From: Anaerolineales bacterium
GTDB taxonomy: Bacteria > Chloroflexota > Anaerolineae > Anaerolineales > Villigracilaceae
Assembly: GCA_030018695.1 (NCBI GenBank)
Contig: JASEHI010000001.1
Coordinates: forward strand, 60,391 to 124,390
Length of the DNA: 64,000 nt
Direction: 5' to 3'
The translations under genes were made by a program, and so were the position numbers. Position 1 is the stretch's first letter. Every line of letters starts with the position of its first letter. The notes below the pieces were generated by a model that saw only the letters and a list, made by a program, of their open reading frames with translations, was not told where the DNA came from and searched no databases. Shown one piece after another: positions 2,354 through 63,633 of this stretch.

Positions 2354-2513
2354 AGAACGTCCCGCAGGCGTTGTCCTGAGCCTGCCGTCTCGCACCGGCG
2401 TGCCGCCGATGTTCGCGGCACGAACGGTGTCGAAGGGTTGGATTGAGCCAATGCCTGCCCTGAGCTTGTCGAAGGGTGACCGTCTTTCAAAACCTGCGGG
2501 ACGGTTGCTTCAA
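2354..2513. repeat. Mosaic repeat with inverted ends in the 2269-2726 non-coding stretch
   Basis: CGTCCCGCAGG near 2360 and CCTGCGGGACG near 2493 form inverted ends around a stretch holding CCTGAGCTTGTCGAAGGG-type words, a motif that recurs near genes elsewhere in the window. No credible ORF lies in 2269-2726. It resembles a MITE-like or REP mosaic, but no transposase is seen. Confidence 0.45.
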
Positions 2514-4703: not shown

Positions 4704-5906
4704 ATGAAAGTAACTGTCCTTCAAGAAAGCCTGGCTCATGGATTGAGCGTCGTTTCGCGAGCCGTGTCGCCGCGCACGACCCTGCCCGTCCTGGCAAATG
4801 TTTTGGTCGCAACCGATGAAGGCCGACTGCGCCTTTCGGCTACCAACCTGGAAATTGGCATCACCTGTTGGATCGGGGCCAAGATCGAGGAAGAAGGCTC
4901 GACCACCGTCCCGGCGCGCACCTTCGTTGACCTGGTCGCGACTCTGCCCGCCGAGCAGGTGAACTTCAGCCTGAACAGCGCCAACCAGACGCTCAACGTG
5001 CGCTGCGGGGCATCCAACACGGATATCAAGTGCATAGACGCCCAGGAATTCCCGCCGTTGCCGGTTCCGGAAATGGAAGGTGCGATGTCTCGACAGGGCT
5101 CGACACAAGTGTCTCGACAGGGCTCGACACAAGTGTCTCGACAGGGCTCGACAACCATCCAGATCAATGTGGCTGATTTCAAGGAGATGATCCAACAGGT
5201 GGTCTTTGCTGCCTCGGTGGACGAGGCGCGTCCGGTGCTGATGGGTGTGTTGATGACGGTGGATAAAGATACGATCTGCATGGCGGCCGCGGATGGCTTC
5301 CGGCTCTCGGTACGCAAGGCGACGCTTTCACAGCCCGCGCCGCAGCCGGTGACAGCTATCATCCCGGGGCGCTCCTTGAGCGAACTGGCGCGCGTCGCTG
5401 CGGATGGCAACGAGATGATCTCAATGGTGATGCCCAAAGGGCGCGGCCAGGTCATTTTCCACGTCAAGGATGTCGAACTGGTCTCACAGTTGATTGACGG
5501 CGCCTTCCCGGATTACCAGCAGATCATCCCGCGTTCGTATAAGTCGCGCACGCTGCTTTCCACGCAGGCGCTGCTCAAGGCCTGCAAGCAGGCCGAGATC
5601 TTCGCCCGCGAAGGCTCCAACGTAGCCCGGCTGAACATCAAGTCCAGCGGAGAACTGGAGCCTGGCACGGTCGAAATTTCCGCCCAGTCCGAAGAGACCG
5701 GCTCGAACGAGACCGTGGTCGCGGCGACCATCGAAGGGATCGGCCTGTTGATCGCCTTCAATGTTAAGTACATGCGCGAGGTATTGGAGGTGATCAAGAC
5801 CCCCAACGTGGCCTTGGAGACCTCCGCGGCGAACGCGCCCGGGGTGATCCGCCCGGTGGGAGATGACAACTTCCTGCACGTCATCATGCCGATGCACCTG
5901 GGTTGA
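4704..5906 (+). CDS. dnaN: DNA polymerase III sliding clamp (beta subunit)
   Basis: The 400-residue product has the three tandem clamp folds: MKVTVLQESLAHGLSVVSRAVSPRTTLPVLANVL at the start, the middle domain VDEARPVLMGVLMTV and the end HVIMPMHLG, the usual M-P-M/L-L C-terminus. It forms the ring that tethers the replicase to DNA. The start has AGGAGAGG upstream and a TATACT -10 at about 4676. It is about 25 residues longer than usual because a Ser/Arg/Gln-rich tandem repeat (residues about 128-150) sits in the linker between domains 1 and 2. dnaA is not adjacent, unlike in many bacteria. Confidence 0.95.
   Translation: MKVTVLQESLAHGLSVVSRAVSPRTTLPVLANVLVATDEGRLRLSATNLEIGITCWIGAKIEEEGSTTVPARTFVDLVATLPAEQVNFSLNSANQTLNVRCGASNTDIKCIDAQEFPPLPVPEMEGAMSRQGSTQVSRQGSTQVSRQGSTTIQINVADFKEMIQQVVFAASVDEARPVLMGVLMTVDKDTICMAAADGFRLSVRKATLSQPAPQPVTAIIPGRSLSELARVAADGNEMISMVMPKGRGQVIFHVKDVELVSQLIDGAFPDYQQIIPRSYKSRTLLSTQALLKACKQAEIFAREGSNVARLNIKSSGELEPGTVEISAQSEETGSNETVVAATIEGIGLLIAFNVKYMREVLEVIKTPNVALETSAANAPGVIRPVGDDNFLHVIMPMHLG
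5086..5153 (+). repeat. 24-bp tandem repeat inside dnaN
   Basis: The 24-bp unit TGTCTCGACAGGGCTCGACA plus CAAG is present 2.8 times at 5086, 5110 and 5134. It is translated as SRQGSTQV repeats. The unit contains CTCGACAGGGCTCGAC, related to the REP-like words found between genes, and keeps the dnaN frame. Confidence 0.9.
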
Positions 5907-12266: not shown

Positions 12267-12289
12267 AGGCGTAAAACGTAATGTCACGC

Positions 12290-12333
12290 TTTGCGTTTTA
12301 CGTTTTACGTTTTACGTTTTACGTTTTACCCTT
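12290..12333. repeat. CGTTTTA heptamer tandem repeat
   Basis: GCGTTTTACGTTTTACGTTTTACG and continuing: about five copies of a 7-bp unit between two parS-like sites. The reverse complement word ACGTAAAACG reappears inside tmk at about 28006-28025. Confidence 0.75.
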
Positions 12334-14070: not shown

Positions 14071-14273
14071 TCTTCAATCTCTTCTTCCCGGCCGGCAACG
14101 AAATACACGATCGGGCCGATGAAGTTGACGAGAACGATTACCACCGCCCAGAGCCATTTGGCGCTTTTCGTGCGCGGGCGGCGGATCAAATCGGCCAGCG
14201 CGGCGATCATCAGCGCCAGCTGGATGATAATCACTGGCACAAGCAGGGGGATATATTCGCGAATGTTTTCCAT
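14067..14273 (-). CDS. PLDc N-terminal domain membrane protein
   Basis: A 68-residue protein with two helices: LLVPVIIIQLALMIAALADLIRRPRTKS and WLWAVVIVLVNFIGPIVYFVAGREEE. This is the phospholipase D-nuclease N-terminal (PLDc_N) module, common as a stand-alone small protein next to ABC-2 exporters in Gram-positive bacteria and Chloroflexota. It contains no catalytic HKD motif. A 4-bp overlap couples it to the ABC ATPase downstream, which suggests a role in assembling or sensing for that exporter. Confidence 0.75.
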   Translation of the reverse strand: MENIREYIPLLVPVIIIQLALMIAALADLIRRPRTKSAKWLWAVVIVLVNFIGPIVYFVAGREEEIEE

Positions 14274-14274
14274 T

Positions 14275-14331
14275 TGCTATTTGCCCTTTGCTATTTGCTA
14301 TTTGCTATTTGCTATTTGCCATTTGCTGATA
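14275..14331. repeat. TTTGCTA heptamer tandem repeat
   Basis: A run of TTTGCTATTTGCTATTTG-type words fills the gap between the slipin stop and the PLDc_N start codon. It is one of several low-complexity word repeats between genes here. Confidence 0.75.
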
Positions 14332-23564: not shown

Positions 23565-24155
23565 ATGAAAATCGGAGTCCTTGCAATTCAAGGCGATTTC
23601 GCAGAACACATCGCCATGCTCAAGCGCCTGGGCATCGAGACCACCGAAGTGCGCCTGCCCGCGCATCTCGAAGGATTGAGCGGCCTGATCATCCCCGGCG
23701 GCGAATCGACCACCATCGGTAAACTGGCCGCGGACTTCGGCATGATGGAGCCATTGCGTGAATTTGGGAAAAGTCATGCCATCTGGGGCACCTGCGCCGG
23801 GGCGATCTTCCTCTCGAAGGACGCCCGCCGCGCCCAGCCCTTGCTTGGCCTGATGGACATCATCATCCAGCGCAACGCCTTTGGCCGTCAGGTGGCTTCC
23901 TTCGAGGCGGATCTCGACATTCCCGAACTCGGCTCAGGCGGCGCGTACCATGCCGTCTTCATCCGCGCTCCCATCATCGAATCCGTGCAGGGCGATGCCA
24001 GGATTCTTTCAGCCCTTCCCGATGGCCGCATCGTTGCCGCGCTGCAAGGAAAACTGCTCGCCACCTCGTTCCACCCGGAACTGACACAGGACACGCGCTT
24101 TCACGAGTTCTTTCTTGCGGTGGCAGGTTGGCAGGTTGACATGTTGGCAGGTTGA
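23565..24155 (+). CDS. pdxT: Pyridoxal 5'-phosphate synthase glutaminase subunit
   Basis: The start is MKIGVLAIQGDFAEH at 23565; the longer ORF from 23535 is a shadow. The 196-residue class I glutaminase has LIIPGGESTTIGKLAAD, the nucleophile in WGTCAGAIFLSKDA and the His-Glu pair in ATSFHPELTQD. It delivers ammonia to PdxS. The last residues (VAGWQVDMLAG) are encoded by a GGCAGGTTGACATGTT word repeat that also supplies the stop codon, so the natural C-terminus has been replaced or extended. Confidence 0.95.
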   Translation: MKIGVLAIQGDFAEHIAMLKRLGIETTEVRLPAHLEGLSGLIIPGGESTTIGKLAADFGMMEPLREFGKSHAIWGTCAGAIFLSKDARRAQPLLGLMDIIIQRNAFGRQVASFEADLDIPELGSGGAYHAVFIRAPIIESVQGDARILSALPDGRIVAALQGKLLATSFHPELTQDTRFHEFFLAVAGWQVDMLAG

Positions 24156-24190
24156 CATGTTGGCAAGTTGGCAGGTTGGCAGGTTGCATC
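24118..24190. repeat. GTTGGCAG / GTTGACAT word repeat at the pdxT end
   Basis: About eight imperfect copies of an 8-11 bp word (TTGGCAGGTTGACATG) span the last pdxT codons and the following gap. The same words recur at 5909-5940, 45363-45425 and 63580-63630. Confidence 0.8.
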
Positions 24191-30483: not shown

Positions 30484-30533
30484 TCTCACCGATCACTGTT
30501 CACTCATCACTCATCACTCATCACTCATCACTC
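30484..30533. repeat. ACTCATC heptamer tandem repeat
   Basis: GATCACTGTTCACTCATCAC and further ACTCATC units. On the minus strand it provides the stop codon of the FmdB-like gene. Confidence 0.75.
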
Positions 30534-30938
30534 AAACCCCATCCCCATATCCGCGCCGCCCATACCTTCGCCCCCTAAATCAGGGATTTCCTTCTCGATC
30601 TCCTCCGGGCTTTGACCCTTCTCCAGGCGGTCTATCACTTCATCAAACTCAGGCGGCATTTCCTCGCCCAATTCTTTCCCCATTTTTCGCATCATGCGTC
30701 CCATCGCCTGCGGATCGTTCTCCAGCCCGGCCAGCGCGGAGGGATCGGAGAAGTCGCCGGCCAGATCGTCCATGCGGCTCTCCTCGGATTTAGCCACGCG
30801 CACGCGCGGCACGCGCCGGCGGACGTGGTCGCTCAGACAGTGGGAACAGGCGACGGGTCGCGCGCCGTATTCGCTGTAGGAAAGGTAAATCTCAAAGCGT
30901 TTGTGACAGTCGAGGCAGATATAATCATATATTGGCAT
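30528..30938 (-). CDS. FmdB-family zinc ribbon regulatory protein
   Basis: A 136-residue protein beginning MPIYDYICLDCHKRFEIYLSYSEYGARPVACSHCLSDHVRRRVPRV, the FmdB zinc ribbon with two Cys-x2-Cys pairs. Unlike the 60-80 residue norm, it has a long acidic/Met-rich tail (NDPQAMGRMMRKMGKELGEEMPPEFDEVIDRLEKGQSPEEIE) ending GGADMGMGFE, a form common in Chloroflexota. Proposed roles include transcription or ribosome-associated functions, not established. Its stop lies in the ACTCATC repeat. Confidence 0.8.
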   Translation of the reverse strand: MPIYDYICLDCHKRFEIYLSYSEYGARPVACSHCLSDHVRRRVPRVRVAKSEESRMDDLAGDFSDPSALAGLENDPQAMGRMMRKMGKELGEEMPPEFDEVIDRLEKGQSPEEIEKEIPDLGGEGMGGADMGMGFE

Positions 30939-42224: not shown

Positions 42225-45017
42225 TTACCGCTTAAACTGTCCCTTCAACTTCTCGGCGGTTTCCTTGAACGCGGACAGTTTCTCGCGTTCCTTCGCGACC
42301 ACGGGTGCGGGGGCTTTGTCCGCGAAGTCACTGGAGAGCAGTTTCTCCAGCCGCGCGACGTGCGACTCGACCTCAGCCAGTTCGCGTGTCAGGCGCTCGC
42401 GCTCGACGGACTCGTCTACCATGCCCGCCAGCGGCAGGTGGATTTCCACCGCGCCGATGACGAGGGCAATGCTGTTCTTCGGCTTCGCCGGAAGAGAGTC
42501 GAGAATAGAGAGTAGAGAATAGTCGAGGCCGGCCAGCGCGGCGATGACATTGGACTGCTCCTTGAGCAGATCCGTCTTCGCCCCGCCGGCGATGGTGGCC
42601 GGGATGCGCTTCGCCGGGCTGACCTTCTTCTCGGCGCGGGCATTGCGGATGGCGCGGACAATATCCTGAACGAGCGTGAAATCGGCAATTTTGTCTTCTT
42701 CCCAGCCTTCCGCTTCGCGCGGCTCGGGCCAGGGGGCAATGATGAGGGCGTCGGGCCAGTCTTGCGCAAGAGTTGCGAGTTGCGACCCTTCGACTGCGCT
42801 CTGGGCAAGGTTGCGAGTTGCGGTACGCAGATGTCCCCAGAGTTCCTCGGTCACAAACGGCGTGAAGGGATGCAGCAGCCGCAGGCACATATCCTGCACG
42901 CGCGCCAGCGTCACTATTGTCTGCTCTCTACTCTCTGCTCCCTGCATCTGCAATTTCGCCACCTCCACGTACCAGTCGGCGAACTCGCTCCAGAAGAAAT
43001 CGTAGATCTGCCGCCCGGCCTCGCCGTATTGGAAGGTCTGGAACAGGCGCTCGACCTCACGGATGAGGGCTTGCAGGCGCGCCCAGATCCAACTGTCCGC
43101 CAAAGTCCAGACCGTGGACGGTTGACCGTAGACAGCGCCTTCACCGTTCACCGTCTTCGATCCACCGTCCACTGTCCACTGTCCACTGTCTGCCAGCGAA
43201 GTGAGGGCCGCGATCACAAACCGCCCCACATTCCACATCTTGTTGGCGAAGTTGCGGTTGGCCTCCACCTTTTTGATATCCATGTTCACATCGTTGCCGG
43301 GGGTGGAACCCACCAGCAGGGTGAAGCGCAGCGCGTCGGTGCCGAAATCGTCCATAACCGGCAGCGGGTCGATCACGTTGCCCTTGCTTTTGGACATCTT
43401 CTGCCCGTTTTCGTCGCGGATCAGGCCATGCAGATAAATGGTGTGGAACGGTATCTGTCCGGTGAACTCCAGCCCCATCATGATCATACGCGCCACCCAG
43501 AAGAACAGGATATCGTAGCCGGTCTCCATGATGGCGGTCGGGTAGAAATACTTGTAATCCGGCGTCTCGTCTGGCCAGCCAAGGGTGGAGAAAGGCCACA
43601 ACCCGGAGGAGAACCAGGTATCCAGCACGTCCGGGTCCTGCTCGATTCTGGCCGAGTCGCAGTGGGCGCATTTCAGCGGGTCCTGGCGGGCGCAGGTCTC
43701 TTTGCCGCATTCGGCGCAGTACCAGACCGGGATGCGGTGTCCCCACCACAACTGGCGCGAGATGCACCAGTCCTTGATATTGTCGAGCCAGTTGTAATAT
43801 ATTTTCTCGAAGCGTTCCGGAACGATGCGAATGCGCCCGTCCTTGACCGCGGCCAGCGCGGCCTCGGCCAGCGGCGCGATCTTGACGAACCACTGCGTGG
43901 AGATCATCGGCTCGACGATCTCGCCGCCGCGCTCGGAGCGTGGGATGGTCGTGCGGTAAGGTTCGGTCTTGATGACCAGCCCGGCGGCCGCCATATCCGC
44001 CCATAAGTTTTTGCGGCACTCGAACCTGTCCTGACCCTGGTACGGGCCGCCGCTTGCGGTGACGCGCGCCGCCTCGTCCAATACAGATAGGATCGGCAGG
44101 TTGTGCCGTTGGGCGATGGCGTAGTCGTTCGGGTCGTGGCCGGGCGTGACCTTGAGCGCGCCCGTGCCGAACTCGCGGCTGACGTAATCATCGGCGATGA
44201 CCAGTATCTCGCGCCCCAGCCTCGGCACGATGACTTTCCTGCCGATATACTTTTTGTAGCGCTCGTCTTCGGGATGCACCGCCACCGCCGTATCGCCGAG
44301 GATCGTCTCCGGGCGGATGGTGGCGACAGGGATGTAGCCTTCCGAAGGTTCGGAACCTTCGGAAGGTTTGAGCATGTATTTGAAATAATACAGCGTCACA
44401 TCCTCTTCGCTGTACTCCACTTCGAGGTCGGAGACCGCCGTCTTCAACCCCGGCGACCAGTTGACCAGCCTCGGGCCGCGATAGATGAGTCCCTTCTCGT
44501 ACAGGCGCACGAAGGCTTCGCGCACAGCGCGCGACAGGCCATCATCCAGCGTGAATCGCTCGCGCTCCCAGTCGCAGGAGGCGCCCAGGCGGCGGATCTG
44601 GTTGCCGATGATGCTGTGATACTTCACTTTCCACGTCCAGGCGCGCTGGATGAATTTCTCGCGCCCCAGTTCCTCGCGGGTCACCTCCTCGACGCGCAGC
44701 AGATCCTTCTCCACCTGCAACTGGGTGGCGATGCCGGCGTGATCGCTGCCGGGCAGCCACAGCGCGGGGATGCCCTTCATGCGGTGGTAGCGGATCATCA
44801 GGTCTTCCATGCTGACGAACATGGCGTGGCCGAGGTGTAATTCGCCGGTGACATTGGGAGGAGGTATCGAAATGACGAAGGGCTTTTTGGCTGGGTCGAA
44901 ATCCGCCCGCTGCGGGTCGTTGGACGGCTTGAAGTAGCCTCCTTTTTCCCACATCTCGTAGATGCGCGGCTCGGTGGATTTGAAGTCGTATGCTTTGGGA
45001 AGATCATATTGGGTCAT
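42225..45017 (-). CDS. valS: Valyl-tRNA synthetase
   Basis: A 930-residue class I synthetase. Signature motifs: PPPNVTGELHLGHA (HIGH motif, about residue 52), ATIRPETILGDTAVAVHPED in the editing domain, QKMSKSKGNVIDPL (KMSKS motif, about residue 545) and the C-terminal coiled-coil RLTRELAEVESHVARLEKLLSSDFADKAPAPVV. A zinc-type segment CAECGKETCARQDPLKCAHC lies in the catalytic domain. At least five stretches are encoded by genome repeats (about residues 217-226, 607-636, 689-702, 734-747, 831-841), lengthening surface loops. It is controlled by the T-box leader at 45526-45908. Confidence 0.97.
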   Translation of the reverse strand: MTQYDLPKAYDFKSTEPRIYEMWEKGGYFKPSNDPQRADFDPAKKPFVISIPPPNVTGELHLGHAMFVSMEDLMIRYHRMKGIPALWLPGSDHAGIATQLQVEKDLLRVEEVTREELGREKFIQRAWTWKVKYHSIIGNQIRRLGASCDWERERFTLDDGLSRAVREAFVRLYEKGLIYRGPRLVNWSPGLKTAVSDLEVEYSEEDVTLYYFKYMLKPSEGSEPSEGYIPVATIRPETILGDTAVAVHPEDERYKKYIGRKVIVPRLGREILVIADDYVSREFGTGALKVTPGHDPNDYAIAQRHNLPILSVLDEAARVTASGGPYQGQDRFECRKNLWADMAAAGLVIKTEPYRTTIPRSERGGEIVEPMISTQWFVKIAPLAEAALAAVKDGRIRIVPERFEKIYYNWLDNIKDWCISRQLWWGHRIPVWYCAECGKETCARQDPLKCAHCDSARIEQDPDVLDTWFSSGLWPFSTLGWPDETPDYKYFYPTAIMETGYDILFFWVARMIMMGLEFTGQIPFHTIYLHGLIRDENGQKMSKSKGNVIDPLPVMDDFGTDALRFTLLVGSTPGNDVNMDIKKVEANRNFANKMWNVGRFVIAALTSLADSGQWTVDGGSKTVNGEGAVYGQPSTVWTLADSWIWARLQALIREVERLFQTFQYGEAGRQIYDFFWSEFADWYVEVAKLQMQGAESREQTIVTLARVQDMCLRLLHPFTPFVTEELWGHLRTATRNLAQSAVEGSQLATLAQDWPDALIIAPWPEPREAEGWEEDKIADFTLVQDIVRAIRNARAEKKVSPAKRIPATIAGGAKTDLLKEQSNVIAALAGLDYSLLSILDSLPAKPKNSIALVIGAVEIHLPLAGMVDESVERERLTRELAEVESHVARLEKLLSSDFADKAPAPVVAKEREKLSAFKETAEKLKGQFKR
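44338..44366. repeat. Palindrome inserted in valS
   Basis: CCTTCCGAAGGTTC-G-GAACCTTCGGAAGG has perfect 14-bp arms around one base. It encodes KPSEGSEPSEG in a loop just before the editing-domain PVATIRPET motif. It would form a strong hairpin in the mRNA. Confidence 0.85.
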
Positions 45018-45062
45018 TTCTCGCTCCTTTTTTTCACCGCGGAGATCGCTGAGTCCGCAGAG

Positions 45063-45362: not shown

Positions 45363-45517
45363 TCAAGTTGCACGTTGGAACGTTGGCAGGTTGGCACGTT
45401 GGAACGTTGGCAGGTTGGCACGTTGAGAATTCTTTCCGTCCACCGTCCACCGTCCACCGTTCATCGTCCACCGTCCACCGTCCATCGTCCACCGTCTATC
45501 GTCCGTCATCCACCGTC
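45363..45517. repeat. GTTGGCAC/GTTGGAAC and CCGTCCA word repeats
   Basis: Two blocks lie side by side: TTGGAACGTTGGCAGGTTGG-type units (45363-45425) and CCGTCCACCGTCCACCGTTC-type units (45438-45517). The second word is also found inside valS (43160-43195). Both sit between the T-box terminator and the small ORF. Confidence 0.85.
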
Positions 45518-46905: not shown

Positions 46906-47042
46906 TATCTTCATCCTTCATCTTTCATCTTTCATCCTTCCGCTTTCATCCTTCATCCCTTCGACTTCGCTCAGGGCAAGCCTTCAAAATATGGTATCCT
47001 TAACCCCATCAACTTTCCGTAGGGCGAAATTAATTTCGCCCT
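46906..47042. repeat. TTCATC word repeat, REP word and palindrome upstream of dNK
   Basis: CTTCATCTTTCATCTTTCAT words (46914-46960), then CCCTTCGACTTCGCTCAGGG (46964-46978) and the palindrome AGGGCGAAATTAATTTCGCC (47021-47042). No gene is present. Confidence 0.7.
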
Positions 47043-63500: not shown

Positions 63501-63633
63501 TTTTTTCACCACGAAGTACACCCTGGCCTAGTCCGCCAGGGCAGGCGAAGGGTCACGAAGGAAAAACCGAAAGGTTTTCGGTTGCAGGTTGAAGGTCGAG
63601 AGGTCGAAGGTCGAAAGTTGAAGGTCGCAGGGG

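Follow-up and report, generated by a model that had tools for sequence, protein, structure and literature searches.

Tandem copies of a dispersed palindromic element lie in frame in the sliding clamp gene of an Anaerolineales bacterium

The window analysed here, a stretch of 64,000 nucleotides from an Anaerolineales bacterium (Chloroflexota), lies on contig 104 of a metagenome-assembled genome (2.86 Mb, 192 contigs, about 94% complete) and contains dnaN (4704..5906, plus strand), which codes for a beta sliding clamp of 400 amino acids and is the single match for this gene in the genome. A Pfam profile search recovered the complete domain order of DnaN (PF00712, PF02767, and PF02768, each far above the cut-off), with domain 1 ending at residue 120 and domain 2 starting at residue 153. 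Tandem Repeats Finder reported an array at 5086-5153 (period 24, 2.8 copies, 100% matches, score 136), bearing out what a sequence-only reading of this DNA had described, namely a 24-bp unit present 2.8 times in the dnaN linker, and the Pfam limits agree with its placement between clamp domains 1 and 2. The insert as a whole comprises 72 bp (5085..5156, plus strand), i.e., the 24 codons 128-151 (MSRQGSTQVSRQGSTQVSRQGSTT) between EGA and IQIN, and consists of three element copies on the plus strand: A-TGTC-TCGACAGGGCTC-GACA-CAA (5085..5108), GTGTC-TCGACAGGGCTC-GACAC-AA with arms of 5 bp (5109..5132), and G-TGTC-TCGACAGGGCTC-GACA-ACC (5133..5156), which ends in GACAACC like the petB insert described below. 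DnaN residues 154-399 align to residues 130-366 of E. coli beta (1mmi), an alignment that places the 24-residue insert in the connector joining domains 1 and 2. Because no DnaN relatives were found when viral contigs were searched for an alignment, AlphaFold was run from the single sequence, and the model was uninformative (mean pLDDT 31).

A tblastn search of 60 related genomes returned DnaN nearly always as two matches: the first covers query residues from 1 to about 128, the second those from about 152 to 400, and the intervening sequence is hardly aligned or not at all. The distance from the QEFPP motif to the FAA motif is 33 residues in the relatives that were fetched and 57 in the window, a difference of 24 residues or 72 bp; the addition is thus in frame, as had been proposed, although it amounts to 24 residues rather than about 23. 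EGA (or its equivalent) is joined directly to IQIN (or its equivalent) in every relative in which the linker was read, the same genus included. This comparison with DnaN of relatives, which the sequence-only reading had suggested, showed the insert to be absent, and no relative carried the same residues. Same-genus DnaN that is 93-94% identical over domains 2-3 lacks the insert, indicating that the insertion in dnaN is young. No single-copy intermediate was found among the relatives compared.

Searches of its own genome and of genome_contigs found no further occurrence of the exact dnaN 24-mer, and 151 other genomes of the taxonomic family lacked even a 21-base stretch of it (one mismatch allowed). 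Within the window, 10-mers of the unit did not recur and shared 9-mers were below chance (6 seen vs. about 12 expected under uniform composition). Neither plasmids nor phages gave a BLAST match to the insert, and Rfam returned a sub-threshold chance match alone, located outside the insert. A whole-genome BLAST with the unit produced weak matches, including GATGTCTCGACAAGCTCGACAACC in an ORF of 839 amino acids and ATGTCTCGATTTGGCTCGACAACC at the start of the cytochrome b gene, which have in common TCGA(C/T)-(2-3 nt)-GCTC between complementary arms. The resulting family pattern, X4-TCGAC(N2-3)GCTC-X4' with X4 and X4' complementary over exactly four bases, emerges only genome-wide and not from the window alone, and the dnaN unit TGTC-TCGACAGGGCTC-GACA obeys it in all three copies. 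A kinship of the unit with non-coding REP words, which had been suggested from the window, therefore holds genome-wide at the level of the family (TCGAC-NNN-GCTC and complementary arms), whereas the 16-mer then quoted is itself not shared.

The core TCGACAAGCTC occurs in 45 copies in the genome compared to 3 in a reversed control, and TCGACN{2,3}GCTC in 223 compared to 42. Arm positions 1-4 are complementary in 56-58 of 69 distinct copies (shuffle means: 24-36), and complementarity is at chance from position 5 outwards. Perfect arm pairs in the genome are of at least 13 types, with CCCT/AGGG and TGTC/GACA foremost; of 61 relatives, 28 carry the CCCT/AGGG subtype, which reaches its highest copy number (34) in this genome. 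Two apparently non-coding copies lie in the window, one with CCCT/AGGG arms (ACCCTTCGACAAGCTCAGGGCAG; 2455..2477, minus strand) and the other reading TCCCTTCGACTTCGCTCAGGGCAA (46956..46979, plus strand), and many copies are inside long ORFs, gene calls being ORFs plus a simple codon score. The 19-mer CCCTTCGACAAGCTCAGGG is also present on unrelated contigs in IMG/VR; among the matches listed, further copies on those contigs keep the four-base arm rule, with at least 22 arm types, and scrambled control cores gave none. Of 13 nested copies, 12 had an inner length of 26 or 27, which corresponds to a core of 2-3 nt plus 24 bp; several of the 13 are copies of one composite rather than independent events. 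BLAST of a nested composite against plasmids gave no match. Isolated 24-mers fold weakly, no better than shuffles, so that the case for hairpin formation comes from covariation and not from stability.

Insertions that keep the reading frame and whose lengths are multiples of 24 bp interrupt genes other than dnaN as well: petB and UDP-sugar dehydrogenase (+24 each), era (+48), and mutL (about +48). At petB (cytochrome b), TAACC|ATGTGG of the same genus becomes TAACC-ATGTCTCGATTTGGCTCGACAACC-ATGTGG, exactly 24 bp longer, and the second ATG might still serve as the start codon despite the insert. The UDP-sugar dehydrogenase has gained the 8 residues NPSTGSGQ, where 52 relatives keep the uninserted spacing of 32 and alignment to Cap5O leaves an 8-residue gap. 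A nested element pair adds 16 residues to Era in comparison to two congeners, and in MutL a nested pair is spanned by a PF01119 match of 69 residues to 53 profile positions. Formate dehydrogenase holds three elements, each within a segment that is unaligned or gapped against 7qv7. A copy with one mismatched arm base (42785..42808, plus strand) lies within valS (42228-45062, minus strand), where it falls in a segment that T. thermophilus ValRS lacks. The 839-amino acid ORF (L058) carries, besides GATGTCTCGACAAGCTCGACAACC, a 24-bp array of 4.5 copies, another case in which the family has been amplified in tandem within a reading frame; four tandem CCCT/AGGG-type elements of 24-bp period are seen at 1494-1600, and the other strand reads as repeated AALSLSKG. 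Peptides encoded by family DNA in unrelated proteins, in several frames, include NPSTGSGQ, PFDKLRA, LSLSKG, and MSRFGSTT.

Several further observations concern repeats in coding and apparently intergenic DNA. An FMN reductase/SCP2-like protein (L096, 595-1755) reads AGD-PSTGTGQA-LQAVIQF where the neighbouring paralogue has AGD-LQATVQF, an apparent 8-residue insert, and an Alanine-racemase-N (PF01168) protein (L071, 1411-2202) has CPELVEGS near its N terminus, from an element in the opposite orientation. A UDP-GlcNAc 2-epimerase-like ORF adjoining the UDP-sugar dehydrogenase (L105, 1-1065, minus strand) contains CHCEEPHSGDEAIPAHEGIASSGKERPPRNDT, which resembles a translated REP-type repeat of a different and longer kind. 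Within valS, the heptamer CACCGTC is present in 7 copies at 43142-43190, an apparently gapped region relative to T. thermophilus ValRS, and simple heptamer repeats may have expanded there in frame. Apparently intergenic tandem arrays with a 7-8-bp unit of varied sequence lie at 12286-12329, 14272-14327, 24121-24186, 30492-30534, 45370-45517, 46909-46958, and 63580-63631; this density of heptamer and octamer repeats across the window is unusual.

We consider it very probable that the dnaN array is an inserted short mobile palindrome of the dispersed family, amplified in tandem and tolerated in the linker. One element of about 24 bp would have entered the linker codons after the split from the sequenced congeners, and tandem duplication at the 24-bp period would have given rise to the three copies; the insert should loop out of the domain 1-2 connector, may be neutral, and would survive because it consists of whole codons, is free of stops in the frame used, and is placed in a linker. 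If replication slippage had instead generated a 24-bp repeat out of the local dnaN sequence and then lengthened it, independently of any mobile element, the complete identity and perfect periodicity of the copies and the uniqueness of the 24-mer in the genome would be accounted for; this appears unlikely, however, as the empty sites of relatives contain no precursor from which the unit could have arisen, and the unit in addition follows the core-plus-arm rule of the dispersed family and is identical to the petB insert at 21 of 24 positions.

An error of assembly is scarcely probable, even though the genome is fragmented into 192 contigs and short tandem repeats are prone to wrong copy number, since the insert is exactly in frame, the rest of the genome offers no exact source for its sequence, and inserts of the same size class in petB, era, and the UDP-sugar dehydrogenase are on contigs other than that of dnaN; the copy number of three could be misassembled even with a real insert. 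The sequence-only reading had regarded the repeat as domesticated into a linker, and SRQGSTQV repeats kept for altered clamp dynamics or partner binding would be in line with a location in the connector of an essential protein and with three unchanged copies. We saw no sign of selection or function and hold such a role to be very unlikely: the insert is absent from every relative examined, and peptides of the same family in unrelated proteins and in several frames point to tolerance and not to selection of the peptide. Confinement to one genome together with like inserts in unrelated proteins fits a tolerated invader.

With regard to how such a mobile palindrome might move, no target-site duplication of consistent length was found (none at dnaN and the UDP-sugar dehydrogenase; AACCATG on both sides at petB), nor was a RAYT-type transposase locus in the genome at about 94% completeness. 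The sole Y1_Tnp match in the genome is the C-terminal part of a 531-amino acid protein, and no family copies were present in the 3.4 kb around it. The exact four-base covariation implies a step at which each arm pairs with the other or serves as its template. Tentatively, the family may represent an undescribed and widespread class of mini-elements with a fixed core of 11-12 nt and variable complementary four-base arms, which would insert in modules of 24 bp (within the core of existing family copies as well), copy or pair four bases without recognition of a fixed terminus, operate without RAYT, and enter essential genes in frame repeatedly. Searches for the core in the open-access literature gave unrelated incidental matches only, and the element may have been described elsewhere.

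Among known systems, the family resembles the Rickettsia palindromic elements (RPEs) and intragenic CGTC REPs, which are short dispersed palindromes that interrupt housekeeping and replication/repair genes without loss of frame, at times more than once in the same gene. RPE-4 and RPE-6 of R. conorii are intragenic REPs, and a REP lies in DnaE (Di Nocera 2013, PMC3733652); intragenic GTAG and CGTC REPs occur in genes including DnaE, Uvr, and Rec genes, where loop or linker insertions may be neutral, and GTAG REPs are known in Chloroflexi (PMC3733652). In-frame insertion in conserved genes whose counterparts in relatives have empty sites, as in RPEs, is seen here in dnaN, petB, the UDP-sugar dehydrogenase, and Era. 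The element itself differs from RPEs (compared by description) and CGTC REPs in its TCGAC-N2-3-GCTC core, variable complementary 4-bp arms, insertion of about 24 bp, and Chloroflexota host. With GTAG REPs and their RAYT (REPtrons) it shares small, dispersed, occasionally intragenic palindromes, and its dispersal as a high-copy short palindrome is a trait of the REP superfamily; however, a GTAG tag within 8 nt outside an arm was found in 0 of 45 perfect-arm copies and a CGTC tag beside an arm once among 45, so that the family lacks the REP tags, and the single Y1_Tnp match has no flanking copies as a REPtron would. Coding minisatellites have in common with dnaN a perfect 24-bp tandem array and 8-residue peptide repeats, but in dnaN the unit belongs to a palindromic family that is dispersed, and relatives lack the array. 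We also considered a MITE, which does not fit arms of only 4 bp or the lack of a consistent duplication (dnaN, petB, UDP-sugar dehydrogenase), and no parent transposon was identified.

Palindromes inserted in frame within essential genes have been known chiefly from Rickettsia and some Proteobacteria. The family described here behaves in a similar manner with a different element, indicating the same insertion habit, with empty sites in congeners, in an uncultured Chloroflexota lineage. Its covarying four-base arms and 24-bp size offer a handle on how miniature repeats move and on why proteins tolerate them, and peptides such as NPSTGSGQ, FDKLRA, or LSLSKG in annotated proteins can be translated repeat DNA.
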